Source of the DNA: Candidatus Baltobacteraceae bacterium
GTDB lineage: Bacteria; Vulcanimicrobiota; Vulcanimicrobiia; Vulcanimicrobiales; Vulcanimicrobiaceae
Direction of reading: 5' to 3'
Assembly (NCBI GenBank): GCA_036559195.1
Contig: DATBTN010000066.1
Location: 1-49,360 of the forward strand
Length of the DNA stretch: 49,360 nucleotides
This document shows, piece after piece, positions 6,224 to 25,240 of this stretch (positions within the stretch are counted from its first letter, which is position 1; every line of letters begins with the position of its first letter). Made by a program: the position numbers and the translations under genes. Under the pieces are notes generated by a model that was not told where the DNA came from, ran no database searches, and worked only from the letters and a program-made list of their open reading frames with translations.

Positions 6224-8889
6224 ACAATTTCAAGCATGCGTCGAATGAGTTGCGTGCGCGATGCAATCCGCAGTTTCCCAAAGATATTCGTAAGGTGAAC
6301 TTCAACCGTTCTTTCGCTCAAGAACAGCGATTCGGCGACCTGACGATTCGTCAGACCGTCGCTTACTAGTCTAGCAACCTCGTTCTCGCGGCGGGTAAGC
6401 CCACCCCGCTCCGGGAATTTTGCCGCACCTAAAGCGACCGGGACCCGCTTCAACCCGAGTTTCGTCAGAAGGCTGACCTGATTTTCAGAGGCGATACCCG
6501 CCTCTTCAGCCGCGTATGAGGCGAAAAAACTAGCGCCTAAAGCCTCGAACTCTTGAGCCGCTACGCTAAGTAGTGATTTTGCATCTTGGCAACACAGGGA
6601 CTTGCTCGCGATACCACGAGCAAGGGTCCACTGTGCGAGCGCCCACCGCGAAAGGTCCTTAGTTGCCGGAGTTTCGGCGAGCACTTTAAGACTTTCCGGG
6701 GACTTCTGGCGAGCCGCCGCTAGTGCCATGCCCAGTGGAATAAAACCGACATCTGGTGGTCTTGGAGGAGCCATCGGTGCGCCAAGCGTGAGAGATTTAA
6801 GGTGCCCTTCCAGGTCTTTAGAGGCTCCGCGCACCACCGCCCACGGGACAAGCTGCATCGCACTCAGGCGGTAGTCGTCGCGAATCGCGGCAATGCTAAC
6901 TTTCTGAATATCAGCATCCCAGGGGGTTGAGACTCCCGTCATGGCACCAATAAGAGCCGGAATTGCAAGAAACGCGGCCGCTCGCGTAACGGGAATGTCA
7001 GGCCGGTAGGCAGCTTCAACGGTTGAAAGCGCAGTCTCCCAATCACCTCGGGCCACTGCATCCCAACCGAAGAGCACACGCGTAAAGTACTGATCCTGCC
7101 CATCAAATCGCACTTTAGCAGTCAGATCAGTCAAGCGCCTGTGAATTGCCACGCAGCCAAATTCCCGAAATTCGATGATCGTTCTATTGAATTCAATCAG
7201 TTCCATTTGGTGATTGAGCTTACTGTCGGCGCGAACAGAAGCGGCATCGAGCGCTCGTTGACTAGCGGCGTAATCACCCATTCCCGACGCCAAAAAGGCA
7301 GTTGCGATCAGGCGAGTGGTGGTCGTGTAATCATCTGTGCCTCCCAGCAAATCCATCTCTTCCGTTAACTTGACAAAGCCGTCTTGGTCAAGGGCTAATC
7401 CTGCAATGCCGACAGCCATGCTCAAGGCCGGAGCTCGCTCCTCACCTGCTAGTCTCGACGAATATCGCTCGTAAAGAACGAGACCCTGTTCCGACCGTTC
7501 AAGCGTCATTAATACCGCCATCTGCATGGCGACTAGACGCCCGATACCGACCGTGACATTCAGGGCTTCAGCCAGGCCAAGAGCGTCGCTCAGCACTATG
7601 GTCGCCTTCGCTTCCTGGTCAGTTACGATTAGAGCTTTACAATATTTAGCGAAAAAGCCGGTAAATTTCGCGCTCGACGGATTCTGTAGCGCCAGGGCAC
7701 GTTCTGAAGCATTGACGACCGCGGCCCAGGATCGTTTTGCTAGAGCAGCGTCGATAAGGTCGAGGTACGTGTCATACGCGAGATCGCTGTTTCCGCAAGC
7801 TAGTGAGTGCGCGATGATGCGCTCGAAATCGTCAGGTTCGGGCTGGGGAATGGATTGCAGCGCTGCGATGATCTTGGTGCGCAGCGGGAAATCAAACTCC
7901 ATGCCCGAGACGATCGCGTCCTCGATGAGCCGGTGCCGGAAGCGCAAATGGGGGCCGTCGGAAATGAGATACGATCGAACGGATCCCTCGAGCAGGTCCG
8001 CGATCTGTTGCGCCTGGGGGTAGAGCTTAAAGAGCAGTCTGAACTCGATCGGCTCGCCGATCAACGCGCAAAGCTGCAAAAACTCGCGTTCGGAAGCCGT
8101 CATCGCCAGTACGTGATTTGCAACCAGATCGCGCGTGCTTTGCTCGTTCCAATGGGTCGTGCCGTTGCGACGGACATCGTCGCAGATCGTCAAGAGATCG
8201 AGCGGATTCCCATGCCCTTGCTGCGCGATCGTATCGACGGCCACTTCGGGAATGTCGGGCAGTTTTGCGCGAACGAGTTCGCGCGCTTCTTCACGGCCGA
8301 ACGGTAGGAGATCGATCGAAATCGGGCTCGCCGGCAAAAGCTCGTTGTGAGCGCCGGGGCGCTCGGCGGTCAGCAGGGCGACCGTTCCGATTGAAATGCG
8401 CTCGGCGAGAGCACGGAGCACGGAGGCGCTCTGGTCGTCGATCCATTGGGCGTCGTCGCAAACGAGCAGGACCGAGTAATCAGCCGCGATGCCTTCAAAT
8501 AAGCGCGTGAATACGGATTCGTACCTATCGCGGTCCGGCGCGGCCGCTTGCGGCTCGATTCCGAGCAGCGCCGCGGAACTGGGATCCAAGGCCGCAATAG
8601 CCTCTTCCAAGCCGCTTACGTATCGCGCCGCATCGGCGCCGAGCCGCCGCAAAGCGCCGGCTACGATGCGATTGGCGGCGACCCGCGGCGTATTCTGCTG
8701 AATTTCGTGACAGGCGGTATAGACAACGAACCAGCCCGCATCGCGCGATTCGGCGGCAACGCGTTCGACGAAGAGCGATTTTCCGACGCCCGGCTCGCCG
8801 CTCACGCGCAACAAGACCGGCCCCGCCGCCGGGCCGGCTTTGACGAGTATCGAGCGCGCGACACTCAGTTCGCGCGTCCGGCCGATCAT
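6220..8889 (-). CDS. LuxR-family LAL-type regulator with AAA/STAND ATPase (paralogue 2)
   Basis: This 889-residue paralogue of the protein at 2470-5148 has the same opening (MIGR.RE), with Walker A GEPGVGKS again at residues 31-38. Walker B-like LLVCDDAQWIDDQSASVLRALAER is almost identical between the two. The C-terminus is a LuxR helix-turn-helix (LTRRENEVARLVSDGLTNRQVAESLFLSERTVEVHL). The 3' two thirds of the gene look visibly less GC-rich than the 5' third and the surroundings. It is divergent from the lipoprotein-YcaO operon across only 57 bases, the typical position for a regulator of that operon. Confidence 0.9.
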   Translation of the reverse strand: MIGRTRELSVARSILVKAGPAAGPVLLRVSGEPGVGKSLFVERVAAESRDAGWFVVYTACHEIQQNTPRVAANRIVAGALRRLGADAARYVSGLEEAIAALDPSSAALLGIEPQAAAPDRDRYESVFTRLFEGIAADYSVLLVCDDAQWIDDQSASVLRALAERISIGTVALLTAERPGAHNELLPASPISIDLLPFGREEARELVRAKLPDIPEVAVDTIAQQGHGNPLDLLTICDDVRRNGTTHWNEQSTRDLVANHVLAMTASEREFLQLCALIGEPIEFRLLFKLYPQAQQIADLLEGSVRSYLISDGPHLRFRHRLIEDAIVSGMEFDFPLRTKIIAALQSIPQPEPDDFERIIAHSLACGNSDLAYDTYLDLIDAALAKRSWAAVVNASERALALQNPSSAKFTGFFAKYCKALIVTDQEAKATIVLSDALGLAEALNVTVGIGRLVAMQMAVLMTLERSEQGLVLYERYSSRLAGEERAPALSMAVGIAGLALDQDGFVKLTEEMDLLGGTDDYTTTTRLIATAFLASGMGDYAASQRALDAASVRADSKLNHQMELIEFNRTIIEFREFGCVAIHRRLTDLTAKVRFDGQDQYFTRVLFGWDAVARGDWETALSTVEAAYRPDIPVTRAAAFLAIPALIGAMTGVSTPWDADIQKVSIAAIRDDYRLSAMQLVPWAVVRGASKDLEGHLKSLTLGAPMAPPRPPDVGFIPLGMALAAARQKSPESLKVLAETPATKDLSRWALAQWTLARGIASKSLCCQDAKSLLSVAAQEFEALGASFFASYAAEEAGIASENQVSLLTKLGLKRVPVALGAAKFPERGGLTRRENEVARLVSDGLTNRQVAESLFLSERTVEVHLTNIFGKLRIASRTQLIRRMLEIV

Positions 8890-8946
8890 GACCGAGTTTT
8901 CGGAATCGCTCAGGAACGTATCCTCATTGTATCGAAGGGGGCGCGC
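8890..8946. promoter_or_regulatory. Divergent intergenic region, LAL2 / lipoprotein-YcaO operon
   Basis: Only 57 bases separate the start of the second LAL regulator on the minus strand from the start of the solute-binding lipoprotein on the plus strand. Both promoters, or one bidirectional control region, must lie here or run into the coding sequences. The plus-strand gene has a purine-rich ribosome site, AAGGGGG, about 6 bases before its ATG. I see no clear palindrome. Confidence 0.4.
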
Positions 8947-10392
8947 ATGGATCGTCGCGCATTTCTTGTCGGGACTTCATTGCTATTTGCGTCGGGTTGC
9001 GCGCAAAACAAGACCCCCGATCGACTTAGACTCTCGACCGTTGCATTGAGTACCGCTCTCGATCCATATACCAACATGTCCCTCGATACCGCCGAACTGA
9101 GCTGGCTCTTCGCCGATGGCCTCATCGGCGCCGATCCAAAGGATCTCGCCCGGGGGTCGCTCAGCGCGATCGCTCCGTCGGCGGATCTTCGCTCATCCAC
9201 CCCGGCGCACCGCTCTTTTAGGTATCGGCTACGCCCGGGCATTCGTTGGCACGACGGAAAACCGTTCGTCGCCGAGGACGTCGTGGCGTGCCTGACCCGT
9301 CTCAAGGGCGGCATTGTCGGCAAACTCCGGCCTTACCGCCTCGTGGAACGCATCGAGGTGATCGGGCCGCACGAATTCGTCGTCCATCTCATCGAGGCCG
9401 ACCCGGCATTCCCGCTGGCCTTTTTTGGACCCCTTGGATCCCCCGGGGTGCCGCTCATTCGCCCCGGCGCGCTGCCCATCGGCACCGGCCCATTCCGGCT
9501 CGAAAGCCACCGCCCCGACGGCACGAGTTACGTCGCGTGGAGCGGCTCCCCGCGTGGCGACGCAGCCAGCCGGCGACTTTCGCTGCAATATCTGGCGAGC
9601 GCACAGACGCAAGACGTTATGTTACAAACGCGAGAGATCGATATCGCGCTCGGCGCCGACAATATTTTCGTACGCGATCACCACATGCACTACATCAAGC
9701 AAAACGCCGGAATCGGCTACGCGCTGCTCAACGTCAGTGGCACCCTCGCGAATCCGAACCTGCGCGAAGGCATCGCGCGGGCGGTCGATCGCAACGAGCT
9801 GGTGGTGAAGGCCTACCGCAACTGGGCGGACCCTCTGACATCGATCCTTCCCGAGCGCGCCCCCGGCGGCGACGTGCACTCTCCACTGCACTTCGATCTA
9901 GCGGCGGCCAAACGGAGCTTCGCTGCGAGTCCGAACGTCAAGCTCACGATTGTTACAACCGCAGGTAACCCGGAACGCATCGCGTTGCTCCTGCAAGAGC
10001 AACTTCGACGCGCCGGCGCGCAGACCGAGCTTCGCCGCTACAGCGATCTCGAATATGCCGCGCCGAATGGACCGCTGCAAACCGGCAGATTCGATATCGC
10101 GTTGTGGGGCGACGTCTACGCGCTGGACCCCGATCTGCTGGCCATTTGGGGATGCGACGCACGGCCGCCGCGCGGCAACAATTTCTCGCGTCTGTGCGAT
10201 CCGCGCTTCGACGCCGACGTTCGCGCTGGGCGATCGGAGTCCGCGCTGCACGCTTTCTGGCGCGATGTTGCCGTCGTGCCATTGGCCGGTTTCGCGCGCT
10301 GCACGGCCGCAACGACACGAGTCCGCGGTCTCACCTCGCCCAACGACCTCGCGCCCTCGGTATATAACTGCACGCAGTGGTCGCTCACCTAA
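8947..10392 (+). CDS. Family 5 extracellular solute-binding lipoprotein
   Basis: I chose ATG 8947 over longer readings because it gives a lipoprotein signal: MDRRAFLVGTSLLFASGC, with a lipobox (FASGC) at residue 18. The 481-residue protein then has the SBP_bac_5 signature RLRPGIRWHDGKPFVAEDVV and the hinge block NPNLREGIARAVDRNELV. Its length is typical for peptide or nickel binding proteins. No permease or ATPase gene follows. Instead a YcaO enzyme gene begins inside its last codons (16-base overlap), so this binding protein is probably made together with YcaO. I infer that it senses or captures a peptide-like ligand at the cell surface. Confidence 0.88.
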   Translation: MDRRAFLVGTSLLFASGCAQNKTPDRLRLSTVALSTALDPYTNMSLDTAELSWLFADGLIGADPKDLARGSLSAIAPSADLRSSTPAHRSFRYRLRPGIRWHDGKPFVAEDVVACLTRLKGGIVGKLRPYRLVERIEVIGPHEFVVHLIEADPAFPLAFFGPLGSPGVPLIRPGALPIGTGPFRLESHRPDGTSYVAWSGSPRGDAASRRLSLQYLASAQTQDVMLQTREIDIALGADNIFVRDHHMHYIKQNAGIGYALLNVSGTLANPNLREGIARAVDRNELVVKAYRNWADPLTSILPERAPGGDVHSPLHFDLAAAKRSFAASPNVKLTIVTTAGNPERIALLLQEQLRRAGAQTELRRYSDLEYAAPNGPLQTGRFDIALWGDVYALDPDLLAIWGCDARPPRGNNFSRLCDPRFDADVRAGRSESALHAFWRDVAVVPLAGFARCTAATTRVRGLTSPNDLAPSVYNCTQWSLT

Positions 10393-11648
10393 AAAAACTC
10401 GCCGGTTCGCACGATCGGTCCGTGCCGGTCCACGAAACTCTGGCGATTGCCCGATCGCTGCGCGAGCGATACGGAATCACGCGCATCGCCGATACGACAC
10501 GCCTGGATCGCATCGGAATTCCCACGATCAGCGTCGTCGTACCAAACTCGGTCGATAAAATCGGCGTGTACAACGGCAAGGGGCTCACGCGCGAACACGC
10601 GATCGCGAGCGGCCTCATGGAGGCACTCGAACGTCAAATCTGCGCGCGCTGCGAAGTCCCTCGCTTCGATGCGCCGGTCGCGCAGATCGACGCGCTCCTC
10701 GATCTGCGCGCGCTCGGCTGGCTCGGCGAACTCGAAGGGTCGGTAGAGTGCGTGGCCGGTACGAACCTGCTCACCGGCGAGCCGGTCGCCGTACCGATCG
10801 GCGTCGCCCAGTGCCCGCGACTCACGCCGCGGCGCTTCGAGCGAACGTCAACAAATGGGCTAGCTTCGGGAAACAACCCGACCGAGGCAATCTATCATGC
10901 GCTTTTCGAACTCGTGGAACGCCATCTGCTCTCAACCGTCCACGTGCGCTCGCACATTCTCCCGCGGGCGTTACGCTCGCTAGCGGGTTTGCCGACAGAA
11001 GCTCACGATGACGTGGTCGCGAGCGAAGTGATCGATGCGGCGGAGCACCCGATTCTCGGCGATTTGATCGCTCGCATAAAGGCGGCCGGCCTCGAATTTC
11101 GCCTGCTCGCCTATGCGCCGCCCGGATGGCCGACGGCGATGCTCGCGTGCATTACGGAACGCGCGGGCCGCGAACTCTTCTATCACATCGGAATGGGCTG
11201 TTCGCTCTCGCCGGGACATGCCGCCATTCGCGCGGTCACCGAAGCCGCACAATCGCGCGCAGCCGATATCCAAGGTGCGCGCGAGGATCTCGAACGCGCC
11301 GACGGCGCCGCACCCAACGATGTTAAACACGGCCGGCGCCCTGCAGGTTTTCCGACCGACGGACGCTGGTATTTTGACGGTCCCGCCAAGCGCATCGGCC
11401 TCGCGGATTTGCCGGACACGTCGTGCGCCGATCTCGGCGACGAAGTCGAACTCGTACTCGAAACGCTGCGTGCCTACGGCGAAACGTGCGTTGCCTACGT
11501 AGACCTAACGCCGCCGGGCGTGCCCATTTCGGTCGCTCGCGTCGTGGCACCGCATCTCGAGCGAACGCTCGTCGACGGGTCGATCTCGAGCCGCCTGCGA
11601 CGGGTTATGCGGCCTCTTGGCGCGTTCCGGTTAGCATCGTGTAGTTGA
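10377..11648 (+). CDS. YcaO-domain protein (ATP-dependent peptide-backbone modifying family)
   Basis: This 423-residue YcaO protein starts at a GTG overlapping the lipoprotein gene. The YcaO ATP-binding motifs are intact: SGLMEALER (SxxxExxER), then NGLASGN followed by EAIYHALFELVER, and the late block TEAAQSRAADIQGAREDL. YcaO enzymes activate backbone amides with ATP to make azolines, thioamides or amidines in RiPPs, or act on ribosomal proteins and methyl-CoM reductase. The C-terminus (MRPLGAFRLASCS) lacks the PxPxP tail of azoline-forming cyclodehydratases, and no E1-like/ThiF partner or TfuA gene is visible. A non-azoline or partner-independent reaction is therefore more likely. The last 44 bases overlap the convergent methyltransferase. 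Confidence 0.9.
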   Translation: MVAHLKKLAGSHDRSVPVHETLAIARSLRERYGITRIADTTRLDRIGIPTISVVVPNSVDKIGVYNGKGLTREHAIASGLMEALERQICARCEVPRFDAPVAQIDALLDLRALGWLGELEGSVECVAGTNLLTGEPVAVPIGVAQCPRLTPRRFERTSTNGLASGNNPTEAIYHALFELVERHLLSTVHVRSHILPRALRSLAGLPTEAHDDVVASEVIDAAEHPILGDLIARIKAAGLEFRLLAYAPPGWPTAMLACITERAGRELFYHIGMGCSLSPGHAAIRAVTEAAQSRAADIQGAREDLERADGAAPNDVKHGRRPAGFPTDGRWYFDGPAKRIGLADLPDTSCADLGDEVELVLETLRAYGETCVAYVDLTPPGVPISVARVVAPHLERTLVDGSISSRLRRVMRPLGAFRLASCS

Positions 11649-12336
11649 ACGTGCCGCCTTCGATTGCGTGCAGCACGTAGGCCGCCTTTACGCACATCTG
11701 GCTCTTGATCGCGTCGTCCCAAGCACCCAGCAGAAACGCCGAATACATCGTCGAGGCGAACTCTTTGACTTGCAGCGAAAGATCGCAGACCTGCTCTACA
11801 TCGGCGTGGCGTTGCAGGAGATCGATCGAGCGCAGGATCTTCTCTTCGTGAGCGCCGTCGAGCGAGATCAGCGTCACGACAAAACGGCCCCCCGGCTCGA
11901 GGTGCCGCCCGATCGCCGCGGCTACTTCCGCGGAGAGGGCACCGCCCGACGGCGGCTCCAGCGCAAAGACGCGATCGAAGGACTCGTTGATTCCAAGCGA
12001 ATCGAGTTGCGCGTAGACGAACTCGCTCTGTGGTGCATTCCGGCGCGCGGCTGCGACTGCCTCGGGTACGGTATCGACCCCAACGTACCGGGTATCGACC
12101 TTGTACCATCGCAGCCAGCGCGCCAAGAACCCACGCCCACACCCGATATCGAGCACCCGCGCTCGTGACGACAGGTCGGCCGCACGCACGATCTCTGCCA
12201 ACACTCGATCGTCGAGTAGACAGAGTCGCCCAATCCCCGATTGCGACCCGCTATGACGTGCGTAGAGATCCAAAGTGCCGTCATCGACGTAGCGGTGGAA
12301 CTCTCGGTTGCGCGTCCATTGACCCAGATCGAGCAT
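11605..12336 (-). CDS. SAM-dependent class I methyltransferase (paralogue 2)
   Basis: This 243-residue methyltransferase has motif I VLDIGCGRGFLARWL, a VGVDTVPEAV acidic loop and LEPGGRFVVTLISLDG. It shares the SGIGRL..LDD block before motif I and the terminal AIEGGTFNYTMLTGT with the methyltransferase at 5145-5879, so the two are paralogues. It is convergent with the YcaO gene and their 3' ends overlap by 44 bases. Being within a few genes of YcaO, it is a candidate tailoring enzyme for the same pathway, but no substrate can be read from the sequence. Confidence 0.87.
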   Translation of the reverse strand: MLDLGQWTRNREFHRYVDDGTLDLYARHSGSQSGIGRLCLLDDRVLAEIVRAADLSSRARVLDIGCGRGFLARWLRWYKVDTRYVGVDTVPEAVAAARRNAPQSEFVYAQLDSLGINESFDRVFALEPPSGGALSAEVAAAIGRHLEPGGRFVVTLISLDGAHEEKILRSIDLLQRHADVEQVCDLSLQVKEFASTMYSAFLLGAWDDAIKSQMCVKAAYVLHAIEGGTFNYTMLTGTRQEAA

Positions 12337-14438: not shown

Positions 14439-14942
14439 CTAGTCTTCGGTGTCGATGCTTACTTGGAGTTTGTCGGTGTAGTTGCCGACGCCGACGTTTT
14501 GCAGCGGTGCGATGACTCCGTAGAGCGTGATCGACCCGTGAGCGCCGTCCTCGCGGTCAAAAGACTCGCGCTCCGCCCCGGCGCCCAGCTTCATGCCCTG
14601 CGGTCCTACGGGTGCCTGGCATGTGGGATCTAAGCAGATTTGATAGTAGAGACGATCGCCGCTCGCGTCGACCATGTATCGCTGTGTCGCAGCGCTCCCA
14701 TTGGAAAGAAACCGCACGACGCGTTCCGGTTCGCGCTCCGAACCGCCCGTGCAGCTATACTCGAGCGTTACCGGAGTCACCGTCGCCGTGTGGCGGAACG
14801 TATTGTACGCGCCGATTTGCAACGGCGAGACCGAGACGATACACGTCGGAATCGAGAATGCGGCCTCGGCTGGACGCGCCAGCACGATGTTCCAACCGAG
14901 CGTCGCGACGAGCGCAATTGCTACGGCGTAAGCTTTGTGCAT
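14439..14942 (-). CDS. Spore coat U (SCPU) domain protein, CsuE-like pilus tip candidate
   Basis: This 167-residue secreted protein starts at ATG 14942 with the signal peptide MHKAYAVAIALVATLG...ARPAEA. The SCPU fold is shown by 'CIVSVSPLQIGAYNTF' near the N-terminus, the central EYSCTGG, RRYM-like 'QRYMVDASGDRLYYQI', and the closing 'GVIAPLQNVGVGNYTDKLQVSI'. It is the last gene of the chaperone-usher operon, the position held by the tip adhesin CsuE in csu clusters, but it is shorter than classical CsuE with its two domains. Its start overlaps the usher gene by 22 bases. Confidence 0.85.
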   Translation of the reverse strand: MHKAYAVAIALVATLGWNIVLARPAEAAFSIPTCIVSVSPLQIGAYNTFRHTATVTPVTLEYSCTGGSEREPERVVRFLSNGSAATQRYMVDASGDRLYYQICLDPTCQAPVGPQGMKLGAGAERESFDREDGAHGSITLYGVIAPLQNVGVGNYTDKLQVSIDTED

Positions 14943-17203
14943 GTTTGTACTCCGAGCTTGACGTACGTCAGTGATGTTTCCGGGATGACGAGTGTGAAGC
15001 CGCACGCACCGCCGGCGTATTTTACCGTTGCCGGATGCGGTCCGGGAGCTAGGTTCTCCAAATAAAATTCGCCCGCTTCACCGATATTCGATGTAGCTTG
15101 CTGCCCGCTGCCAAGATCGACCGTTAGCATCCCGTATTGAGGAGCCTTGTTCGTCGACGCCAAATTGACCGTTCCGAGAAACGACTGCGTGCGGTGCGCG
15201 TCGAACGTTGCAAGTGCCGCCGCGAAATGCGCCGCCTCAACGTTTCGTTCGGTGGTCGAATACTGCTCGCCGATCGGCGCCCTCCCCGTATCGAGCGCGA
15301 TGTGATTCGGGTAGTACTCCTGGACCTCTGGAACGACCAGGAGGCCGCCCCGATTGGTCTTTCCTACATACCGCCCGTTCACATCAACCGGCAGACCCGT
15401 CGGCCCCGCTGCCGAAACGACGACGTATCCGCCTTGAAGTGGGCGCGATAGGAGTATGTGGTGATCTGCGAACACGATGGCTCCGGCTGCGTTGAAGTAG
15501 GTCGACGCATTGCCGGCAAAATCGGTTCGGTTGAGGGTATAGATGCCAACCGGGCCGTCGTACTGAGCCACCGCTTGCAATTGCGGATTGTTGCCGCGCG
15601 TGATGCTGAGATTATAGCCGAGTGGCTGATCCGGAAAAGCCGGACGGCTCGCCTGCACGTTTACACTTCCTCCGGCGGCCGACGCGTCGTTCGTGATCGA
15701 TCCGTACGACTGCTGGCCGATCGGGAAATTGAGCGCCGTGTAAACGTCGGTCCGATTAAATCCCGCTGCCGCTTGGGTTCGCTGATAGTCGATGCTTAGC
15801 GACAAGGCTTTCGCCAGCGGAATCGTCGTCAGCGCGCCGTAACCGGTTTCTTCGCCCAGGTCGCGATCGTGTGCGTGTGTGAGGTTAAAGGCCAGAACGC
15901 GCCGGCCGATCGGAAGACCGAGGCTGACCGTTTCGCTTGAGAGCGCGTGGTCTTGCGCGGCCGGCTGGAACAGATTTGCATACGACGCCGATTCGAGCTG
16001 CACGCCGATGTTGAAATAGACGCGCGGCGTTGAGTAGTTGTACAGAAACTCGGCGGCCGAACCAGATTGACCGTTCGCCGAACTTGCGAACCCGAGCAAA
16101 TCGAACTCCCCGGCGCGCGTCGATATCGCTACCGTTGGTCCGGCGTTGACCAATCGCGCCGCGCTTTGGATTCGGCCGCCAACCGTCACGTGATCGTTCA
16201 CGCCCAAACTGTAGCTGCCGGCAAGACCGGCCGCTCCAAGTGAGTGTCCTAAGCCGTCCTGCGGATCGCCGGCCGTGTAGGTGTAGTCGGTCTGGCCTTT
16301 GTTGAGCAGTTGGAGGCCCTGGTAGAACGACTGCGAGAGCGTCTGAACGTTCCCGAAGGCGTCGCGAATGACGACCTGCGCGTTGTTCGCGCCGGCTACC
16401 AGCGGCAGGTTCTGGATATTAAACGATCCGGGCGGCAACTGTAATTGTTGCACGAGCGAGCCGTTAACGTAGACGTCGGCGGTCGACGGCGTTGCGACGT
16501 ATCCCGTAAGGGCATGCGTAACGAAGCGGTTGACGAATGGATCGAGGCCGAAGTTGCGTTCGATCGTGACGCCGCGCACGATACCGCCTCCGGTCAGATC
16601 CCCAAAATTAACGAAGCTGTCACCAATGACCGATCGCCGCAGCGTATGCTCGTTATCTATGGTCCAATTGAGGTTGGTTGCGCGATAGATCCCGGCGACG
16701 TCGTTGAAGGTCGCGCTCGCAACGCCAGCTCCAAGCGTGGATCCAAATTGTGTCGAGAGTCTCCCTGATTGCCCTTGCGTGAGCAGTGCGCCATAATTAA
16801 TGAACGCGCTTTTCGTTCGGGTTACCGGTACCTGTTGACCGCTGCGAATATCGAACGACGACGCGGCCAGCAATTTTGGGTCGACGGTGATGCTTAGCGT
16901 GAGCGTTTTCGTGTCGATCCGCCACGTTACGTCGGGCTTGAGCGCGTTGAGCGAAACGTAGATTCCGGATGCAACCGCGTGGGCCGCAACGGCTTTGCTC
17001 AAGCCGAGATCCTTAAGATCTGCTTGTGCGATCTCCACGTCGCTCGAGTCGACGAACACCGTGTATAGGCCGTCGTCGACCGAGTTCACCTTCACCGTTA
17101 GAATCGCCCGGATACCCTGCTGCGCTTGCGTCGGGATGGCCGTTGCACCGACGAGAGCCAGTGTTATCGCCAAGGCAGCGCAAAACGCGCGAACGCCGCG
17201 CAT
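14921..17203 (-). CDS. Fimbrial outer-membrane usher (FimD/PapC family, CsuD-like)
   Basis: This is a 760-residue usher. I prefer ATG 17203, one base after the chaperone stop, because it begins the signal peptide MRGVRAFCAALAITLALVGA...PTQAQ; another in-frame start lies 33 bases upstream. The body has typical usher motifs: RATNLNWTIDNEHTLRRSVIGD, then GLDPFVNRFVTHALTGYVATPSTADVYVNGSLVQ with PPGSFNIQNLPLVAGANNAQVVIRDAFGN (plug region), beta-barrel repeats, and a C-terminal 'VDVNGRYVGKTNRGGLLVVPEV'. It forms the outer-membrane pore that assembles pilin subunits handed over by the chaperone, so the organism should have an outer membrane. Confidence 0.92.
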   Translation of the reverse strand: MRGVRAFCAALAITLALVGATAIPTQAQQGIRAILTVKVNSVDDGLYTVFVDSSDVEIAQADLKDLGLSKAVAAHAVASGIYVSLNALKPDVTWRIDTKTLTLSITVDPKLLAASSFDIRSGQQVPVTRTKSAFINYGALLTQGQSGRLSTQFGSTLGAGVASATFNDVAGIYRATNLNWTIDNEHTLRRSVIGDSFVNFGDLTGGGIVRGVTIERNFGLDPFVNRFVTHALTGYVATPSTADVYVNGSLVQQLQLPPGSFNIQNLPLVAGANNAQVVIRDAFGNVQTLSQSFYQGLQLLNKGQTDYTYTAGDPQDGLGHSLGAAGLAGSYSLGVNDHVTVGGRIQSAARLVNAGPTVAISTRAGEFDLLGFASSANGQSGSAAEFLYNYSTPRVYFNIGVQLESASYANLFQPAAQDHALSSETVSLGLPIGRRVLAFNLTHAHDRDLGEETGYGALTTIPLAKALSLSIDYQRTQAAAGFNRTDVYTALNFPIGQQSYGSITNDASAAGGSVNVQASRPAFPDQPLGYNLSITRGNNPQLQAVAQYDGPVGIYTLNRTDFAGNASTYFNAAGAIVFADHHILLSRPLQGGYVVVSAAGPTGLPVDVNGRYVGKTNRGGLLVVPEVQEYYPNHIALDTGRAPIGEQYSTTERNVEAAHFAAALATFDAHRTQSFLGTVNLASTNKAPQYGMLTVDLGSGQQATSNIGEAGEFYLENLAPGPHPATVKYAGGACGFTLVIPETSLTYVKLGVQTCTKLTP

Positions 17204-17204
17204 G

Positions 17205-17966
17205 CTATTTACAGCTCTTGTTTGCGAGCGGAACATCCCGCAGTACGACCGGCCCGAGGTTGGTTTGGGCCGTAATGTTGATGCTGCTCACCGAGCGGCA
17301 CGCGGCTTTCGAGAACGGCAGCGAGAAGTCGCGGCGACCTCCAGCAAGAACATACCACGCATCCGCAGATGCGCCGGCAACCGTTTTTCCACCGGCATCG
17401 AGGCCGGCGACCTCAATTTTATCGATCATTTCGCGGACGGTTCCGTTGTTGCGCAACGAGAAGTCGATTTTACCGGAAGCGAGCGTTGCGCTCGGAATCG
17501 CGAGCGCGCGCACCTGGCGCGACGGCTCCACGAATACGGGAACGCCGACTTTCAGGCGAACCGCGATGGAATGCCCGGTCAACGCCTCATTGATTGAAGG
17601 CAGTTCGTTGATGAAGACGCGAAATGTTCGCTCGGTCGAGGCCGCGCCGCCTTCGACACCGATCCGAATCTGTTGCGTTTCGAGCGGAGCGACCGTTACG
17701 AGTGTGGGGAAAAAAATCAAATCTTCGGACGGCGTGAGCTTCATAACGCCGTTCGGCTGCTGATCCCAAGCGGAGCCCGTGATCTGCAGTCGCACCGGAT
17801 AGGTGGACTTGTTCTGGATGTTCATGACGGCGGCGCCGTCGCCGCTCGGGATCGAGAGCTGGATCGGCGCAACGGCGATATCGGATGCGACGGCCGGGCC
17901 GGCCAGAGCTAGCGCGATCGCCAGCGTAATCGAAGCAGTTATGAGGCGTTTCAATGAGGGGTCCAC
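17205..17966 (-). CDS. Periplasmic pilus chaperone (PapD/CsuC-like)
   Basis: This 253-residue protein has a signal peptide (LITASITLAIALALAGPAVASD) and the two immunoglobulin-like domains of pilus chaperones. The first has 'VAPIQLSIPSGDGAAVMNIQNKS' and the second 'RNNGTVREMIDKIEV'. It starts with a GTG. It donates a beta strand to unfolded SCPU pilins and brings them to the usher. It is encoded between the small 92-residue protein and the usher, the csuC position. Confidence 0.88.
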   Translation of the reverse strand: MDPSLKRLITASITLAIALALAGPAVASDIAVAPIQLSIPSGDGAAVMNIQNKSTYPVRLQITGSAWDQQPNGVMKLTPSEDLIFFPTLVTVAPLETQQIRIGVEGGAASTERTFRVFINELPSINEALTGHSIAVRLKVGVPVFVEPSRQVRALAIPSATLASGKIDFSLRNNGTVREMIDKIEVAGLDAGGKTVAGASADAWYVLAGGRRDFSLPFSKAACRSVSSINITAQTNLGPVVLRDVPLANKSCK

Positions 17967-18014
17967 CTTGAGCGTTGAGGATATCGACGCTCGGGCGAAC
18001 CTGCGAACCTCGGC

Positions 18015-18293
18015 TTAGAAGTTTACTGTTCGCACCAACGTCTTCGGATCCGTGGTGACAATGGGTTTGTTATAGAGGCTCGCCGCGCGCATACCACGCA
18101 GCTGATTTCCGTCGGCCGCCTGCGCGCACGATGACTGAACGCGATTTTGCGATGCTTCGATGACCGCGTCGCACGAGGCTACAACGGTGGCCGAGACGCG
18201 AACGGTCGTCGAGAGACTGTGGCCGCCACTCGCGCTAGCGACGGAGGGAAGAAGACACGCGCCCGCGAGCGCCATACCAAGAACGATCCGCAC
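18015..18293 (-). CDS. Small secreted protein of the pilus operon
   Basis: This 92-residue protein has the signal peptide MRIVLGMALAGACLLPSVASA and a mature part of about 70 residues. The segment TVRVSATVVASC recalls the start of SCPU pilins (compare VAVSANVVPFC in the gene at 18411), but the rest of the SCPU domain is missing. It occupies the position of csuA or csuB, so it may be a reduced minor subunit or an adaptor. I cannot assign it to a family with certainty. Confidence 0.65.
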   Translation of the reverse strand: MRIVLGMALAGACLLPSVASASGGHSLSTTVRVSATVVASCDAVIEASQNRVQSSCAQAADGNQLRGMRAASLYNKPIVTTDPKTLVRTVNF

Positions 18294-18321
18294 GATCCAC
18301 CTACCTTTCGATGGGAGCCGC

Positions 18322-18370
18322 CCGAGCCGCCCTGTCCCCCCGCTAGCGGGGGTTGACAGAGGAGGCTCGG
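18322..18370. repeat. Long nested hairpin inside the pilus operon
   Basis: The core CCCCCGCTAGCGGGGG (18337-18352) is a perfect palindrome, flanked by the arms CCGAGCC (18322-18328) and GGCTCGG (18364-18370), with CTGTC/GACAG between them. It lies between the first SCPU gene and the 92-residue gene. There is no clear run of T on either side, so it is more likely an mRNA processing or stability element that keeps the major pilin transcript abundant than a full terminator. Confidence 0.6.
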
Positions 18371-18410
18371 ATAGCTCTTACCCTTGAGTTAGGTGTATCG
18401 GTCGAAACCT

Positions 18411-18902
18411 CTAGTAGTTGAGGGTAATGGTTACCGTGTCCGAGTAGTTGCCCGTGGTGACGTTCTGCTGCTGCGGAAGCACGCCGTTGAAGGGAAACTG
18501 GTTGTAGCCCGAGTTGTTGTTGAGGGCAATCGTTTGACCCGACGTCCAGGCGACGCTGTCGCCGGCATCTTTATAGAGGTTGTAGTTTAGGAAGCTGGTG
18601 CCGTTGGACATGCGGCGCTGGCTGCCGTTACCATAGGTGCCGCCGTCGACGGACAGGGTGGCGTTTGTGCCCTTGGTGCACTCGAACTCAAGAATGCCCG
18701 TCGTTTTCACGTCAAAATTATTGAAGACGTTGTACGCGCCGAATGCGACCTTGTCGGCACTCGCGCCGAGATCCAAGTTCACGCAGAAGGGAACGACGTT
18801 GGCCGACACCGCGACCGGGGTGACCTGGTTGGCCGATGCCGCCATCGGGCTGAGCAGTAGCGCGACTGCAGCAACGAGCCCGGCTTTTGAAACGAAATTC
18901 AT
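18411..18902 (-). CDS. Spore coat U (SCPU) domain protein, CsuA/B-like major pilin
   Basis: This 163-residue secreted protein starts at ATG 18902 with the signal peptide MNFVSKAGLVAAVALLLSPMAASA. SCPU landmarks are VSANVVPFC, 'VAFGAYNVFNNFDVKTTGILEFECTKG', 'SQRRMSNG..FLNYNLYKD', and the C-terminal donor-strand-like 'NYSDTVTITLNY'. The even, Asn/Gly-rich composition and first place in the operon match the major pilin CsuA/B. A hairpin at 18322-18370 follows and could raise its expression relative to chaperone and usher. Confidence 0.87.
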   Translation of the reverse strand: MNFVSKAGLVAAVALLLSPMAASANQVTPVAVSANVVPFCVNLDLGASADKVAFGAYNVFNNFDVKTTGILEFECTKGTNATLSVDGGTYGNGSQRRMSNGTSFLNYNLYKDAGDSVAWTSGQTIALNNNSGYNQFPFNGVLPQQQNVTTGNYSDTVTITLNY

Positions 18903-19237: not shown

Positions 19238-19436
19238 CGCTTGTCATGGTGAGCTCGTCCTACGACAAGCTCCGTCCTTCGACAAGCTCAGGATGACAAG
19301 GGGGGGTTATTGTGTTTGTCATGGTGAGCTTGTCGAACCACGCGCTTGTCATGGTGAGCTTGTCGAACCACGCGCTTGTCATGGTGAGCTTGTCGAACCA
19401 CGCGCTTGTCCTTCGACAAGCTCAGGATGACAAGTG
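19238..19436. repeat. Dispersed repeat cluster, copy 2, with exact 30-base tandem triplication
   Basis: The family found at 14317 and 28126 is expanded here. Positions 19321-19410 are three exact tandem copies of a 30-base unit that begins ATGGTGAGCTTGTCGAACCA and ends CGCGCTTGTC. Opposed CTTCGACAAGCTCAGGATGA units flank them at about 19278 and 19411. One frame through the triplication spells a 10-residue peptide three times, which is incidental. It lies just downstream of the tRNA-Thr gene and upstream of the pilus operon. Confidence 0.85.
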
Positions 19437-19441
19437 GGGGC

Positions 19442-19517
19442 TGGAGCCGACGGCCGGACTCGAACCGGCGACCTGCTATTTACGAAACAGCTGCTCTACC
19501 AACTGAGCTACGTCGGC
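19442..19517 (-). tRNA. tRNA-Thr, anticodon CGU
   Basis: On the minus strand the cloverleaf is complete in 76 bases. The acceptor stem is GCCGACG pairing with CGTCGGC, the D arm contains AGCTCAGTTGGTAGAGC, and the anticodon stem GCTGT/ATAGC has loop TTCGTAA, giving CGU. The T arm is GCCGGTTCGAGTCCGGC. Discriminator T and a genome-encoded CCA complete the 3' end. It reads ACG codons. Confidence 0.95.
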
Positions 19518-19568: not shown

Positions 19569-21716
19569 TCAGCCGTGCACGATGCTTGCGATGGGCATGT
19601 GGGCGACGCGTTCGACGTACGGCTCGACGGTTTGGAAGAAGCGGGTCAACGCGTTGCGGCGGGTCTTGGGGCCGAGCATCGGCCAGAAGCGGCCGACGCG
19701 TGCCTGTGCTAGGTGTTCGAAGCTTGCTTGCAATGCGTCGCGGCGCGCCGCGGGATCGATCAACAGGCGAGCCAGGTCATCCTCCAGGCGCTCGATCGAC
19801 GCGCCTTTGCAGCGGATCATCGAGGGCAGCGTGCGTACCGAATCGAGCGACGCGCTGCCTACGAGCAATGTCGCAAGATACTGGTTGAGGGCGCTGCCGA
19901 AAAATGTGACGATTGCGGCTTCTTCGGTCTCCAACTCGATCCGAATCGTACCCGGCTCCCAGCCGCGTGCGAGCGCATCGGCCCGTTCGTCTTCCATCTT
20001 GAGCGTGAGCGCCGGGCTTTCGAGCACGCCTTTGCGGCCGCAGAGAATCGCGTACGTGCGCTGCATCACCTCGAACGAAGGCCCCGGGCCGAGCCCGTGC
20101 CATTTCGGCACCGCGACTCGCCGCGACGGTTCCACTAAGAGCACGAGCCGCACTTCGTCGATGCTCTTCACGCGCCACGAGCGGCCGCCGAGCACGAGAT
20201 AATTCTCGCGGTTGCGCGAGATCGGATACCGCCGGTCGATGGTGCCGATGACGTCGTGTTCGGTTCGTACCGTCCACTCCGTGTCGGTTTCGAAGACGGC
20301 GTAGAACTCGCGATAGTTCATGCGTCCGAACTGCTTCTCGGTCATCGGTCCGAGTGCGAGCCAATCGCGTTCGGGCTGCAGGTAACCCATTTCGAGCATC
20401 TCGTCGAGCAGTTCGTTGAACTCCGCTTCCGAGGTCTCGCGAAACGAACCCGCGCACAGCAGCACGCCCGCAATCTCCGAGCGATCCGCGCGGATGCGTT
20501 CGCGCAAGAGTTGCAACACTTGCTGGAAGAGCACGTGGATCGCGGCGCCGTTGGGCGTCAGTTCTTCAACCGTGCCCTCGAGCGCGAGTTCGCCTACCGC
20601 GAGCGCCAGCGGAATCTCATCCAAGGTTTTTGCGTACATGATGCACTTCGATTCGGCATCGCCGCGCCGGCCCGAACGCCCCAAACGCTGCAGCAGCGAT
20701 GACGCCGTGTGGGGCGCGCCGAGCTGCACCACGAGATCGAGATCGCCGATGTCGATGCCGAGTTCGAGCGTGCTGGTCGCAACGATCACCTTCGGGCCCT
20801 CGAGGCGGAACGATTCTTCGACGCGCTGACGCTCCTCCTTATGAATGGAGCCGTGATGTACCATCGCTTCGAGGCCCGCTTCGCGCAACTCGAACGAGAG
20901 GCGCTCCGCGTCGCTGCGCGAGTTCACGAAGACGATCGCGCGCTTGCCCTCAACGTGCCGCCGCAGTGCGACGACGAGTTTTCGCCGCTCCTCGCTATCG
21001 GCAATTTCGTTGCGATCGTCGCTCTGATGCAAGTAGCCCACGCCGATGCGCCGCACGCGCGCGTGATCGTCGACGATGACGGGAATGGCCGGCGAGTCCG
21101 CGCGCGACGACCGCATCCACTCGACTACCGCATCGGGGGCGGCGACCGTCGCGCTGAGCGCGATGCGGGTCATCGGCGTCTGCTTATCGGCCTCGACGCG
21201 CGCCAGCAGCGACATGAGCTGCGCTCCGCGATCGTCGCCGGCGAACGCGTGAATCTCGTCGATCAGCACGAACCGCACGTCGCCGAGCAGCGCGCCGTGC
21301 CCGTACGCATCGGAGCTGAGCATCACTTCGATCGATTCGGGCGTGGTAAGCAGCGCGTGCGGCGGCGAAGCCAGGATCTTCTTGCGGGCCGGAGCGCTCA
21401 GATCGCCGTGCCACCAAGCGACGCGCAGTCCGTTCTCTTCGAGGAGGTTTTGCGCACGGCGTGTCTGATCGTTGATAAGCGCGCGCAGCGGCGAAATGTA
21501 GAGCAGCGCGATCGGTTCGAGTTTGAGCCGCGTGATCTCCGAAACGATCGGCAGAAGCGCCGCCTCCGTCTTGCCGCTCGCCGTGGGAGCCACGATGAGC
21601 GCGCCGCTGCCGCCGAGGATCGTCGGCATGGTCTGCGACTGAATCGGCGTCCATTCCGACCAGCCGTGCGCCTCGATCCAGCGTTGCACGCCCGGCGCGA
21701 GCCGGTCGAAGCTCAA
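19569..21716 (-). CDS. DEAD/DEAH helicase, Lhr/BrxHI-like
   Basis: This 715-residue protein starts at a TTG whose last two bases overlap the stop of the upstream BrxD-like gene (TTGA); longer readings only translate that gene's shadow. Superfamily 2 motifs are clear: TPIQSQ, Walker A APTASGKT (43-50), DEIHAF, ALSAT, 'IVFVNSRSDAE', 'TSTLELGIDIGDLDLVVQLGAP' and 'LQRLGRSGRRG'. The remaining C-terminal half is of Lhr type. BREX type 2 loci carry such a helicase (BrxHI) next to BrxD. Here the partners are BrxD-like and TerB_N proteins without PglX or PglZ, so this is a compact module probably acting on DNA. Confidence 0.88.
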   Translation of the reverse strand: MSFDRLAPGVQRWIEAHGWSEWTPIQSQTMPTILGGSGALIVAPTASGKTEAALLPIVSEITRLKLEPIALLYISPLRALINDQTRRAQNLLEENGLRVAWWHGDLSAPARKKILASPPHALLTTPESIEVMLSSDAYGHGALLGDVRFVLIDEIHAFAGDDRGAQLMSLLARVEADKQTPMTRIALSATVAAPDAVVEWMRSSRADSPAIPVIVDDHARVRRIGVGYLHQSDDRNEIADSEERRKLVVALRRHVEGKRAIVFVNSRSDAERLSFELREAGLEAMVHHGSIHKEERQRVEESFRLEGPKVIVATSTLELGIDIGDLDLVVQLGAPHTASSLLQRLGRSGRRGDAESKCIMYAKTLDEIPLALAVGELALEGTVEELTPNGAAIHVLFQQVLQLLRERIRADRSEIAGVLLCAGSFRETSEAEFNELLDEMLEMGYLQPERDWLALGPMTEKQFGRMNYREFYAVFETDTEWTVRTEHDVIGTIDRRYPISRNRENYLVLGGRSWRVKSIDEVRLVLLVEPSRRVAVPKWHGLGPGPSFEVMQRTYAILCGRKGVLESPALTLKMEDERADALARGWEPGTIRIELETEEAAIVTFFGSALNQYLATLLVGSASLDSVRTLPSMIRCKGASIERLEDDLARLLIDPAARRDALQASFEHLAQARVGRFWPMLGPKTRRNALTRFFQTVEPYVERVAHMPIASIVHG

Positions 21717-22942
21717 GCAACCGCCTCGACGAAATCGTCGTCGTCGAGATTCGCATCGCGCTTCTCCACCAGCGACGCCGCCTCGATCACCGCATCGCTG
21801 CGCACGTTGAGCCGCTGGTTGCGCGCGTCGAGCATATCGACCAGCGCCTTCAGATACGCGCGCGGCTTTTGGCGAATCTCGCCGAATTTTGCGCCCGCCG
21901 TCGCGATGAACTGTTCCATCTCCGCATCGGGAAACTCGGCTTTTGCCGCCCATTCGTAGGCCGAGCCGTGGATCGTCCGCACGCGTTCGGAGACGTCGTG
22001 CAGGGCGCGCCCGTCGAATTCCTCGAGCCGAATGATCGGCTGGCGCAAATCGCGCCCGCTCGAAACCTGCTGAGAGCGCACGCGCTGGTAGAGCGCTTGA
22101 TACGATGCGACGCCCTTGAACTCGTCCTCGAAGAACGGCTGCGTTCCGGCGAAAAGAAACATGCAGTACGGAAACTCGTCGCTGCCGATGTCGATCAGCT
22201 CGCGCATCGACGTGTAGGCGGCGTCGCGCTGCGGTTTTGCCAGGCGCATGATCGATTCGACTTCGTCTATGAGCACCACCAAGCCGGGATAGCCCGCATC
22301 GCGCATCAGCGCGCAAACTCCGCGCAGCCGGCGAAAGGCCGACTCCGCGTTCAGCTTGCCGACTACTTTCAACTGCCCGCGCACCTCGCTCGCGATGCTC
22401 TCGCCGCGCAGCCAATCCGTCGCCGCTTGCATCAGCGCATCGTTCGCATCGCAGTACGCGCGATAGTACGCGCGCAGACCCATCGCGAAACCGGGATCGC
22501 CGGCGGAGACCTTCTTGATCGCCGCTTCGAGCGCGGCATTCTCTTCGAGCGGCGTGCCGGCATCGTAGTTGCCGAACCACGTTTGAAAGATCTCATCGAG
22601 CGCGCAGGCGCTGCCCGAGTCCGGACTGCGCAGTCCGCGCAGAATCTCGCTCACCACCAAATCGCGTTTGCCGAACGGAACCTCGCGGCTCAGATTGACG
22701 ATCGAAACGAGCATGCGGTGGCCGAACGCCAGCTCGCGCAGCACGCTGCACATGAACGTCTTCCCCGAACCGTAATCGCCGCGCAGAAAGCGCGTCTCGG
22801 AACCGCCCGCGCTCACGAAACCGAGGATGCGCTCGAACTCCGCGATCTCGAGATCGCGACCGACGCAGATGCGCTTCGTGCCCTTGTTCGGTACTTTCCC
22901 GATCTTGAGCGCCTTAACGATTTGTAAATCCGTAATGTCCAT
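21713..22942 (-). CDS. BrxD/DUF2791-type P-loop ATPase
   Basis: This 409-residue ATP-binding protein matches the BrxD (DUF2791) family: 'VPNKGTKRICVGRDLEIAEFERIL', Walker A LRGDYGSGKTFM, the block 'SREVPFGKRDLVVSEI', the Walker B stretch 'GLVVLIDEVESIMRL', and 'YCMFLFAGTQPFFEDEFKGV'. Its ATG follows the stop of the TerB_N gene with no gap, and it shares 4 bases with the helicase gene. In BREX type 2 the same ATPase/helicase pair occurs beside the phage-exclusion genes. Anantharaman and colleagues described DUF2791-helicase-TerB groupings as DNA-processing systems (from memory). Confidence 0.88.
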   Translation of the reverse strand: MDITDLQIVKALKIGKVPNKGTKRICVGRDLEIAEFERILGFVSAGGSETRFLRGDYGSGKTFMCSVLRELAFGHRMLVSIVNLSREVPFGKRDLVVSEILRGLRSPDSGSACALDEIFQTWFGNYDAGTPLEENAALEAAIKKVSAGDPGFAMGLRAYYRAYCDANDALMQAATDWLRGESIASEVRGQLKVVGKLNAESAFRRLRGVCALMRDAGYPGLVVLIDEVESIMRLAKPQRDAAYTSMRELIDIGSDEFPYCMFLFAGTQPFFEDEFKGVASYQALYQRVRSQQVSSGRDLRQPIIRLEEFDGRALHDVSERVRTIHGSAYEWAAKAEFPDAEMEQFIATAGAKFGEIRQKPRAYLKALVDMLDARNQRLNVRSDAVIEAASLVEKRDANLDDDDFVEAVA

Positions 22943-24220
22943 TTAGATCCTCGTAGTGGGCGCGGTGCCGGTCGTTTCGGTCAGCAGGTCGATAACGTGC
23001 GCTCTTGACGTGCGGGTGCGGCGCGCCAACTGCGCGACGATCTCGTTCATCGCCTCGGCACGAGCGACGGAACCGACGAAGAGATGCTGCAGCGCGCGCG
23101 TAAAGCGGGCGCCGGAGACGCTGGTTTTGATCTGGGATGCATCGGTAACGGGGGGGTCCAATCGCCACACCGCACGCGACCCATGACTGAGCGACCAATA
23201 GGCCTTGCGCATCGTTCCGACCGTTGCGTAAAGGCCCAGACGATCGCCGATCGTTCCGTAGTGGCCGCGGAGTTCGGCTGAGAAGGCGATGCGCCCCTCG
23301 ACGTACGGTTTGACATCGCTCAGCCACAGCACCAGCAGCAGCACGAGCAGCGCATCCGGCTCCCACACCGCGTGCGCGCTCCAGGCAATACCAGCGAGCG
23401 AATCGGCTGCCGGCAACCCGGCGAGTGCGGCATGCACGATGGCTTCGCGCTCCGAAGCCGGCTGCTTGCGATCCCGCGGAGTCGCCTGCCCGATCAGATG
23501 CAGCATCGCCTCGACGATCGTGTCGATCGCGGTCTGAACCGCCGTCGAGCGCTTGTAGGAGAACACCAGCTTGTTGAGCGCCCCGAACCGCGCCAGATAG
23601 ACGCGCGCGTCGCCGACGTTTGCAAAGAGCTGGCGCTGTATGGCCGTTGCGGTAACGCCGACGGAAGCGGCCACTACGGGGTGCGTGTCGACCTCGCTCG
23701 CAAGCGCCTCGTAATGCCGAAGGGCGTCGACGCCCGCGATCGCGGTGAGCCGTTTGCTATAGAGCGGAATCAGCGCGCGCGCGTGCGGCGCCGTTTTTGC
23801 GGCGATCGCGAGGTCGAGGACGAGTTGCGCATCCGCGAGCGACTCCGTGATCGCGTCGTAGACGGGCTTCGATTGCATCAGACGCAGATCGACGATCCAC
23901 GTCGAAAGGTTCTGCGTAAACGCGTCGTTCTTTCGATACTCCCGGCGAAGTGCGATCCATGCCGCTTCGAGATCTTCTGCCGACTTCGCGTGGGTCGCGA
24001 GTTCGTAAACGTATAAAAAGCGATAGGTTGCATCCGCCGGCAGCGCCGTGCCCGCTTCGTATTGCTGGCGCCAGTAAATGTAGAACGCCTTCTGCGCCAT
24101 GTTCAGATCGTGATAGTGCGGATAGTAAATGCGGCATGGCGGCATCGCCGCGGCGGCGACGGGAGCCTCCGGGCGCGCCGGAAAGCCGGCGCGTGCGTGC
24201 GCGCTAAAGACCGGAGTCAT
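22943..24220 (-). CDS. TerB_N-domain protein of the BrxD/helicase operon
   Basis: This 425-residue protein is first in the operon. After about 25 low-complexity residues comes a stretch typical of TerB_N: 'YYPHYHDLNMAQKAFYIYWRQQYEAG', then 'YRFLYVYELA' and 'WIALRREYRKNDAF'. The rest is mostly helical and ends in a basic region (about residues 370-425, ARRTRTSRAHVIDLL). I see no nuclease or metal site. TerB_N proteins accompany DUF2791 ATPases and helicases and are thought to be structural or sensing partners. The domain call rests on pattern recall. Confidence 0.72.
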   Translation of the reverse strand: MTPVFSAHARAGFPARPEAPVAAAAMPPCRIYYPHYHDLNMAQKAFYIYWRQQYEAGTALPADATYRFLYVYELATHAKSAEDLEAAWIALRREYRKNDAFTQNLSTWIVDLRLMQSKPVYDAITESLADAQLVLDLAIAAKTAPHARALIPLYSKRLTAIAGVDALRHYEALASEVDTHPVVAASVGVTATAIQRQLFANVGDARVYLARFGALNKLVFSYKRSTAVQTAIDTIVEAMLHLIGQATPRDRKQPASEREAIVHAALAGLPAADSLAGIAWSAHAVWEPDALLVLLLVLWLSDVKPYVEGRIAFSAELRGHYGTIGDRLGLYATVGTMRKAYWSLSHGSRAVWRLDPPVTDASQIKTSVSGARFTRALQHLFVGSVARAEAMNEIVAQLARRTRTSRAHVIDLLTETTGTAPTTRI

Positions 24221-24282: not shown

Positions 24283-24322
24283 CTGAAAAAAGGACCGGCA
24301 GCGGCCGGTCCTTTTTTTTCAG
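24283..24322. terminator. Bidirectional intrinsic terminator
   Basis: A hairpin with stem GGACCGGC / GCCGGTCC and loop AGCG is bordered by A6 on the left and T8 on the right, so it has a U-tail on either strand. It lies 15 bases past the stop of the YVTN propeller gene (minus strand), which it should terminate, and it insulates the TerB_N operon that starts at 24220. Confidence 0.85.
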
Positions 24323-24337
24323 CGAACGCCGCGCTCC

Positions 24338-25240
24338 TTAGGGCGTGAAGGTGTACTTCTGCACGAAGGCGCCGCTCTTATCGCCGGAGACCACGAAGAC
24401 GCTGCCGGTCTTCGAGTCGATCGCCGTCGTGTGCACGTGGTCCGACACGGCGGTCTGCCCCACGATCGTCAGCGCCGCCCCGTCGGTTTTAAGCATCGTT
24501 AGCTTACCACCGCCGGCACATGCCATAACGTCGGTCGCTTGGTCGAGATCGCACTGATCCACGCGCGTCGGAAAGTCGATCGTCTGCACTTTAGTGCCGT
24601 CGGTTTTATAGACGGAGAACTTCATGTTCTCGCCGCCGGCGAGCAGTTCGCCGTGCGCCACGTCCAACTGCAGCGGATGGTTGTTGGTAAGTTCCGGCGT
24701 CGCGATCGTGCGCGTAACCTTGAGCGTGGTTGGATCGATCACCGCGATCTCGCTCATGTTCGCGATGTTCTGATAGATTACGTGCGTCTTTGGATCGATC
24801 TGAAGATACTCGGGCTTGTGACCCGGAAGCGCGACCGACCCAATCTGTTTGAACGTCTGCGAATCGATCACGAAGATCTGCGTGCCGTCGTCCTCATCAC
24901 CGTAAATTCGGTGCAGAGTTGGGTCGTAGGCGATCGCGTCGACGTGTCCGGAGACCGCTACCCGATTGATCTCTTTCATCGTCACGGGGTCGACTTCCGA
25001 GATCGCGTTATCGCCACCGTCGCCGGTAAAAACGTGGCCGTTGGCAGGGTCCACGGCGACGCCGGCCATCGGGCCCACTTTTACGGAGCCGAGCACCTTA
25101 CCGGTATCGGCGTCAACGATAAGCAGGTCCGAGGCGCCGCCATGTGCGGCATAGACCCGGCGGCGCACGGCGTCGACCGTGACGTAATCGAATCCGCCGG
25201 GCGCGGCGATTTGTTGCGGTGGGGCGGCAACGATAGGCAT
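24338..25240 (-). CDS. YVTN-type beta-propeller repeat protein
   Basis: I chose ATG 25240 because GGAGG lies 7 bases before it. The 300-residue protein consists of about seven repeats of the pattern 'v.vD..tgkvigsv.vg...v.vDp..g.vf', for example 'LLIVDADTGKVLGSVKVG', 'VAVDPANGHVF' and 'AIDSKTGSVFVVSGD'. This is the YncE/YVTN seven-bladed propeller. There is no signal peptide at this start, so it may be cytoplasmic or carry a non-classical leader. It is divergent from the TonB-dependent receptor, and a terminator follows. The ligand is unknown. Confidence 0.82.
   Translation of the reverse strand: MPIVAAPPQQIAAPGGFDYVTVDAVRRRVYAAHGGASDLLIVDADTGKVLGSVKVGPMAGVAVDPANGHVFTGDGGDNAISEVDPVTMKEINRVAVSGHVDAIAYDPTLHRIYGDEDDGTQIFVIDSQTFKQIGSVALPGHKPEYLQIDPKTHVIYQNIANMSEIAVIDPTTLKVTRTIATPELTNNHPLQLDVAHGELLAGGENMKFSVYKTDGTKVQTIDFPTRVDQCDLDQATDVMACAGGGKLTMLKTDGAALTIVGQTAVSDHVHTTAIDSKTGSVFVVSGDKSGAFVQKYTFTP

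Follow-up and report, generated by a model that had tools for sequence, protein, structure and literature searches.

A divergent Shango-like candidate defense operon at an optional genomic site in Vulcanimicrobiaceae

Three closely packed genes in a 49,360-nucleotide stretch of DNA from a Candidatus Baltobacteraceae bacterium (hereafter, the window) encode a TerB_N-domain protein, a BrxD-like ATPase, and a Lhr/BrxHI-like helicase. Do these genes constitute an anti-invader system that acts on its own, and if so, how is that system related to Shango and to BREX type 2, in which similar ATPases and helicases are found?

Gene organization and encoded proteins

All three genes, which a preliminary description of this DNA had placed at 19569–24220, were confirmed there on the minus strand (Table 1), and both of the tight junctions that it had reported were verified. 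The genes for the SngA-like protein and the ATPase are separated by no gap (the stop codon TAA is at 22945–22943 and the next ATG is at 22942), and the ATPase and helicase genes have TTGA at 21716–21713 in common. An open reading frame at 19569–22580 (nominally 1003 amino acids) consists of the helicase frame plus an extension that crosses the ATPase gene out of frame, and alignment with relatives identifies TTG 21716 as the true start of the helicase. Three other genomes also keep the trio together, and it is therefore not a chance arrangement; judged by the gene order common to four genomes of four genera, it is one conserved unit. Each window-type SngA that was found accompanies ATPase and helicase genes. 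The GC and GC3 of the operon are in line with those of the neighboring genes, and its composition therefore gives no sign of recent import.

Table 1. Features of the operon and its flanks in the window.
Feature	Coordinates	Strand	Remarks
tRNA-Thr(CGT)	19442..19517	-	Left landmark of the optional site; ARAGORN and Rfam; adjoins the beta-propeller gene in relatives
SngC/BrxHI-like SF2 helicase, Lhr-type core	19569..21716	-	715 aa; start TTG overlaps the ATPase stop
SngB/BrxD-like AAA+ ATPase	21713..22942	-	409 aa; BrxC_BrxD domain, Walker motifs
SngA-like protein	22943..24220	-	425 aa; TerB_N (about residues 27–127) and about 280 residues without any match
Terminator-like inverted repeat with T-run	24285..24320	.	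Right edge; between the operon and the beta-propeller gene
Beta-propeller gene	24338..25240	-	Right landmark; family core (90/99 family genomes); outside the system

Pfam and PADLOC matches agree with the earlier naming of the ATPase and the helicase. The ATPase matches the BrxC_BrxD domain (Pfam; E = 1.1e-84), and its Walker A (GDYGSGKT) and Walker B motifs are intact. Among PADLOC profiles, BrxD (1.7e-64) scores higher than SngB (1.7e-50), and the score against the NCBIfam BrxD model, 216.7 bits, is under the equivalog cut-off of 350. The ATPase profile also weakly matches the helicase loader DnaI (E = 0.0023). The helicase matches the Pfam domains DEAD (E = 1.1e-33) and Helicase_C (E = 2.6e-28), retains the motifs APTASGKT, DEIH, SAT, and QRLGRSGRR, all intact, and likewise scores higher with the BREX profile (PADLOC BrxHI, 1.6e-162; SngC, 4.5e-133). 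Its predicted structure (pLDDT 82.7) resembles the ssDNA-bound Lhr of M. smegmatis from end to end (PDB 5v9x; TM 0.73/0.68), at only about 22 per cent identity; unlike that protein, the window helicase is linked to a TerB_N protein as well as to an AAA+ ATPase. The genome encodes another Lhr-like helicase besides that of the operon. No nuclease was recognized in the three proteins.

The SngA-like protein is conserved with known proteins over its N-terminal part. It matches TerB_N (Pfam; E = 3.8e-10) and PADLOC SngA (1.6e-13), the latter at residues 28–115 only, and the profile of window-type SngA matches an alignment of eight canonical SngA proteins only over residues 9–142. In the window protein and four relatives, Pfam detected at most TerB_N, and neither the TerB core nor TerB_C. 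The last approximately 280 residues have no match in Pfam, PADLOC, or PDB sequences, and the protein's profile likewise matched no PDB sequence. An AlphaFold model built from three sequences was too poor for use (pLDDT 53), and a PDB fold search with this poor model returned nothing at E ≤ 0.001. Window-type SngA proteins are 33–53 per cent identical among relatives and were not found in plasmids. In one relative (G076), a second SngA-like gene (L008:6017-7300), in whose product Pfam no longer recognizes TerB_N, lies behind the helicase gene, giving the order SngA-SngB-SngC-SngA2.

Relationship to Shango and BREX type 2

Shango (SngABC) is a published system of three genes, encoding a TerB protein, an ATPase, and a helicase, that has been shown to act against phages in P. 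aeruginosa and E. coli, and it cuts the plating of several Pseudomonas phages 10- to 100-fold (PMC10250203). The novelty that the preliminary description had implied for such a trio is thus not supported. Its author had missed Shango; in the PADLOC search that it had recommended, Shango profiles match all three proteins. The likeness extends to gene order, which in the reference Shango loci on Klebsiella, Salmonella, Hymenobacter, and Polymorphobacter plasmids is that of the window: a TerB-domain protein, a BrxD-type ATPase, and a Lhr/BrxHI-type helicase in one stand-alone operon. Shango, known from P. aeruginosa PA14, E. coli, and Klebsiella/Salmonella plasmids, sits in defense islands or hotspots.

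The operon differs from Shango in the domains of its first protein and in the ancestry of the other two. Domain scans of three reference SngA proteins showed TerB_N, TerB, and TerB_C in two and TerB_C only in the one from Hymenobacter, whereas only TerB_N was detected in the window SngA. The earlier claim that the three-gene system is complete is therefore uncertain, the first protein being without a detectable TerB core and TerB_C. The window-type proteins make up a single clade, apart from those of Shango and BREX, in the ATPase phylogeny as well as in that of the helicase. Rooting the helicase tree on two outgroup sequences, E. coli Lhr and the other Lhr-like helicase of this genome, places the window type outside Shango plus BREX with moderate support (88/86); neither a grouping with Shango (p-AU = 0.108) nor one with BREX (p-AU = 0.118) is rejected. 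By these phylogenies, the window-type ATPase and helicase are firmly a separate lineage. Because the SngA domain and clade features that define canonical Shango are both lacking, we do not file the operon as Shango, although it probably works in a similar way. A 2012 paper on Ter-dependent stress systems may describe TerB_N-ATPase-helicase operons, and this exact architecture may have been described there earlier.

Like BREX type 2 (Pgl), the operon has a BrxD–BrxHI dyad whose genes overlap and follow the same order, at about 30–35 per cent identity. It differs in having a TerB_N protein in place of PglZ and BrxC/PglY: the genome (96.9 per cent complete) has no match to PF08665 (PglZ), and the operon ATPase is its sole PF10923 match, leaving no second ATPase of the BrxC/PglY type. 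At the locus itself, neither PglX nor PglW adjoins the operon.

Distribution, insertion site, and neighborhoods

The window-type ATPase occurs in four of 99 family genomes, the window's own counted, each from a different genus; a fifth match (E = 7e-6) belongs to a different and distant protein. When a profile was run against 149 genomes of the phylum, the window-type ATPase turned up in those four alone, and window-type SngA is present only in the same genomes, two of which are Candidatus Eremiobacterota in public records. SngA of the canonical type is found in five genomes from other families of the phylum. A single-sequence scan of genome contigs gave no match, an alignment scan of genome contigs gave two loci of the window type together with numerous BREX and archaeal ATPases, and the patterns scanned against viral contigs gave no match to the operon.

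BrxD-type genes have other partners elsewhere. At L131:6002-7348, L095, L097, and L099, in other families of the phylum, BrxD–BrxHI-type genes are directly behind a gene whose product, a right-handed beta-helix protein ending in a winged-helix-like part (Beta_helix E = 1.2e-33 in Pfam for L131; seen by eye in L095), stands there in place of PglZ or TerB; the ATPases of these loci form one clade. In many methanogen genomes (L012–L057, L063, L067, L084, and L089, mostly Methanomicrobiales), a BrxD-like ATPase is behind a TPR protein of about 600 amino acids, with no helicase within the sequence examined. Two SngA loci are arranged unusually: SngA is about 5.5 kb from SngB in L132 (G099) and lacks SngB on a 7.1-kb contig in L142 (G100).

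The four copies of the trio are in four different contexts. In a further relative (G023), the tRNA-Thr(CGT) is 219 bases from the beta-propeller gene with no gene between them, and this interval is an empty site; loss of the operon in G023 is formally possible. The window has a terminator-like stem at 24293–24306, and a comparable stem is found at the corresponding position in G023; such stems are no commoner than in shuffled sequences. On the other side of the tRNA-Thr, G023 encodes a tyrosine integrase and a serine recombinase (resolvase), and near the same tRNA/propeller pair three other genomes (G069, G071, and G073) encode a D12-class adenine methyltransferase and a PD-(D/E)XK protein. 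The window operon is on the 5′ side of the tRNA-Thr and was therefore not placed there by integration at the 3′ end of the tRNA. A 21-base repeat, with six copies at 19242–19432, is also unsupported as an explanation, being found at three places in the window; in all, the repeat (TGTCATGGTGAGCTTGTCGAA and variants) has twelve copies on both strands at 14.3, 19.2–19.4, and 28.1–28.3 kb, and none are expected by chance. Of the elements said earlier to isolate the operon, the tRNA and the terminator-like stem are present at its flanks, and the repeats are not specific to it.

To the left of the tRNA-Thr, the window carries several other gene sets. Genes of a chaperone-usher type pilus (14439–18902; usher PF00577, matched in 23 of 99 family genomes) lie just beside it. 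A YcaO cyclodehydratase gene (10377–11648) beside methyltransferase-like and peptide-binding-protein genes makes 8548–12336 a possible modified-peptide cluster. The genes for two paralogous large AAA_16-LuxR regulators (2470–5109 and 6220–8889) share a strand and enclose a methyltransferase-like gene.

No other defense genes were recognized beside the operon in the window, and no other Ter genes were seen beside it at the four loci. The survey of relatives for the trio in defense islands that had been suggested earlier gave one positive, G076. About 1.3 kb past its operon, on the opposite strand, are HerA-like, Mre11/SbcD-like, and Rad50/SbcC-like genes, followed further on by a DarT/macro-domain pair and then a CBASS set composed of a SAVED-PD-(D/E)XK effector (2.4e-118), a nucleotide cyclase (1.1e-121), a ThiF/E1-like protein, and a JAB protease. 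From its gene content, this neighborhood is a defense island. In another trio-bearing genome (G087), a baseplate-like phage protein is encoded near the trio, as is a PD-(D/E)XK/RNase H-like protein.

Proposed function and its alternatives

Sequence comparisons indicate that the operon is real, conserved, and patchy, and that it very probably acts against invaders. We think it likely that it is a divergent Shango-like anti-invader system, in which a separate deep BrxD–BrxHI (SngB–SngC) lineage is joined to a TerB_N partner. The preliminary description's candidate stand-alone anti-phage system finds support in the absence of PglZ and BrxC, in this patchiness, and in the defense island of one relative; the housekeeping pattern that it had set against its own proposal, near-universal presence at a fixed place, was sought and is contradicted by four of 99 genomes, four contexts, and the empty site.

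How such a system would work can be outlined. The TerB_N protein may be a sensor of invasion or a recruiter/adaptor, acting through its C-terminal region. The AAA+ ATPase would assemble on DNA and load or switch on the Lhr-type helicase, a role suggested by the Lhr-like helicase fold, the weak DnaI match, and the loading or activation of BrxHI that has been proposed for BrxD (PMC12839542). The helicase would then translocate on invading DNA and either block its replication or expose it to nucleases. Destruction of DNA, if any, would come from the uncharacterized SngA region or from partner nucleases, because no nuclease was recognized in the operon's own proteins. For canonical Shango, we found no description of the mechanism in the literature searched.

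The operon could instead be canonical Shango that has simply diverged, the C-terminal part of SngA being a TerB/TerB_C region changed past recognition. The common gene order, the PADLOC matches to all three proteins, the fast evolution of SngA, and ATPase and helicase trees in which a grouping with Shango as sister is not rejected all fit this explanation. We nevertheless consider it rather doubtful, given that none of five window-type proteins shows TerB/TerB_C, that the profile–profile alignment stops after TerB_N, and that the ATPase and helicase are outside the Shango clade. Derivation from BREX type 2, as a remnant or variant after the loss of PglX, PglZ, and the rest, would account for the higher scores of the BrxD and BrxHI profiles, but not for a TerB_N gene that is part of the operon in four of four copies; we set it aside, as extremely improbable, on the absence of PglZ (to which that of a second BrxC/D ATPase can be added) and on the tree position outside the BREX clade.

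Two further explanations dispense with a role in defense. An Lhr-type helicase with its loader could form a housekeeping or accessory DNA-repair operon retained in some lineages only; the predicted helicase fold is the one seen in Lhr, a family of repair helicases, the composition is native, and Mre11/Rad50-like and HerA-like genes are beside the G076 copy. The distribution and the empty site described above, the defense-island neighbors of that same copy, and the presence of another Lhr-like helicase in the genome make this unlikely. The TerB_N domain also brings to mind a Ter-type stress or metal/xenobiotic response module with no role against phages, as Ter systems have been linked to xenobiotic response (PMC7824862). 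Such a module is highly improbable here, as no other Ter gene accompanies the operon, the partners are DNA-acting enzymes, and one copy is inside a defense island.

If the operon is a divergent Shango-like system, a natural variant with TerB_N, ATPase, and helicase but without detectable TerB/TerB_C suggests which parts of Shango are a common core and which are exchangeable, and the BrxD–BrxHI pair stands out as a module common to separate defense systems. A bolder interpretation, which we advance tentatively and regard as possible, is that the window-type operon is a distinct defense system and not a Shango subtype, its TerB_N partner carrying a new sensor/effector region of about 280 residues, and that BrxD–BrxHI is a general helicase-loader module with varied partners. 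If this is true, those partners would be PglZ in BREX type 2, TerB_N/TerB/TerB_C in Shango, here TerB_N with a new region, and elsewhere in the phylum a beta-helix protein. For this little-studied phylum, the tRNA-Thr(CGT)/beta-propeller site is a place to seek further defense genes.
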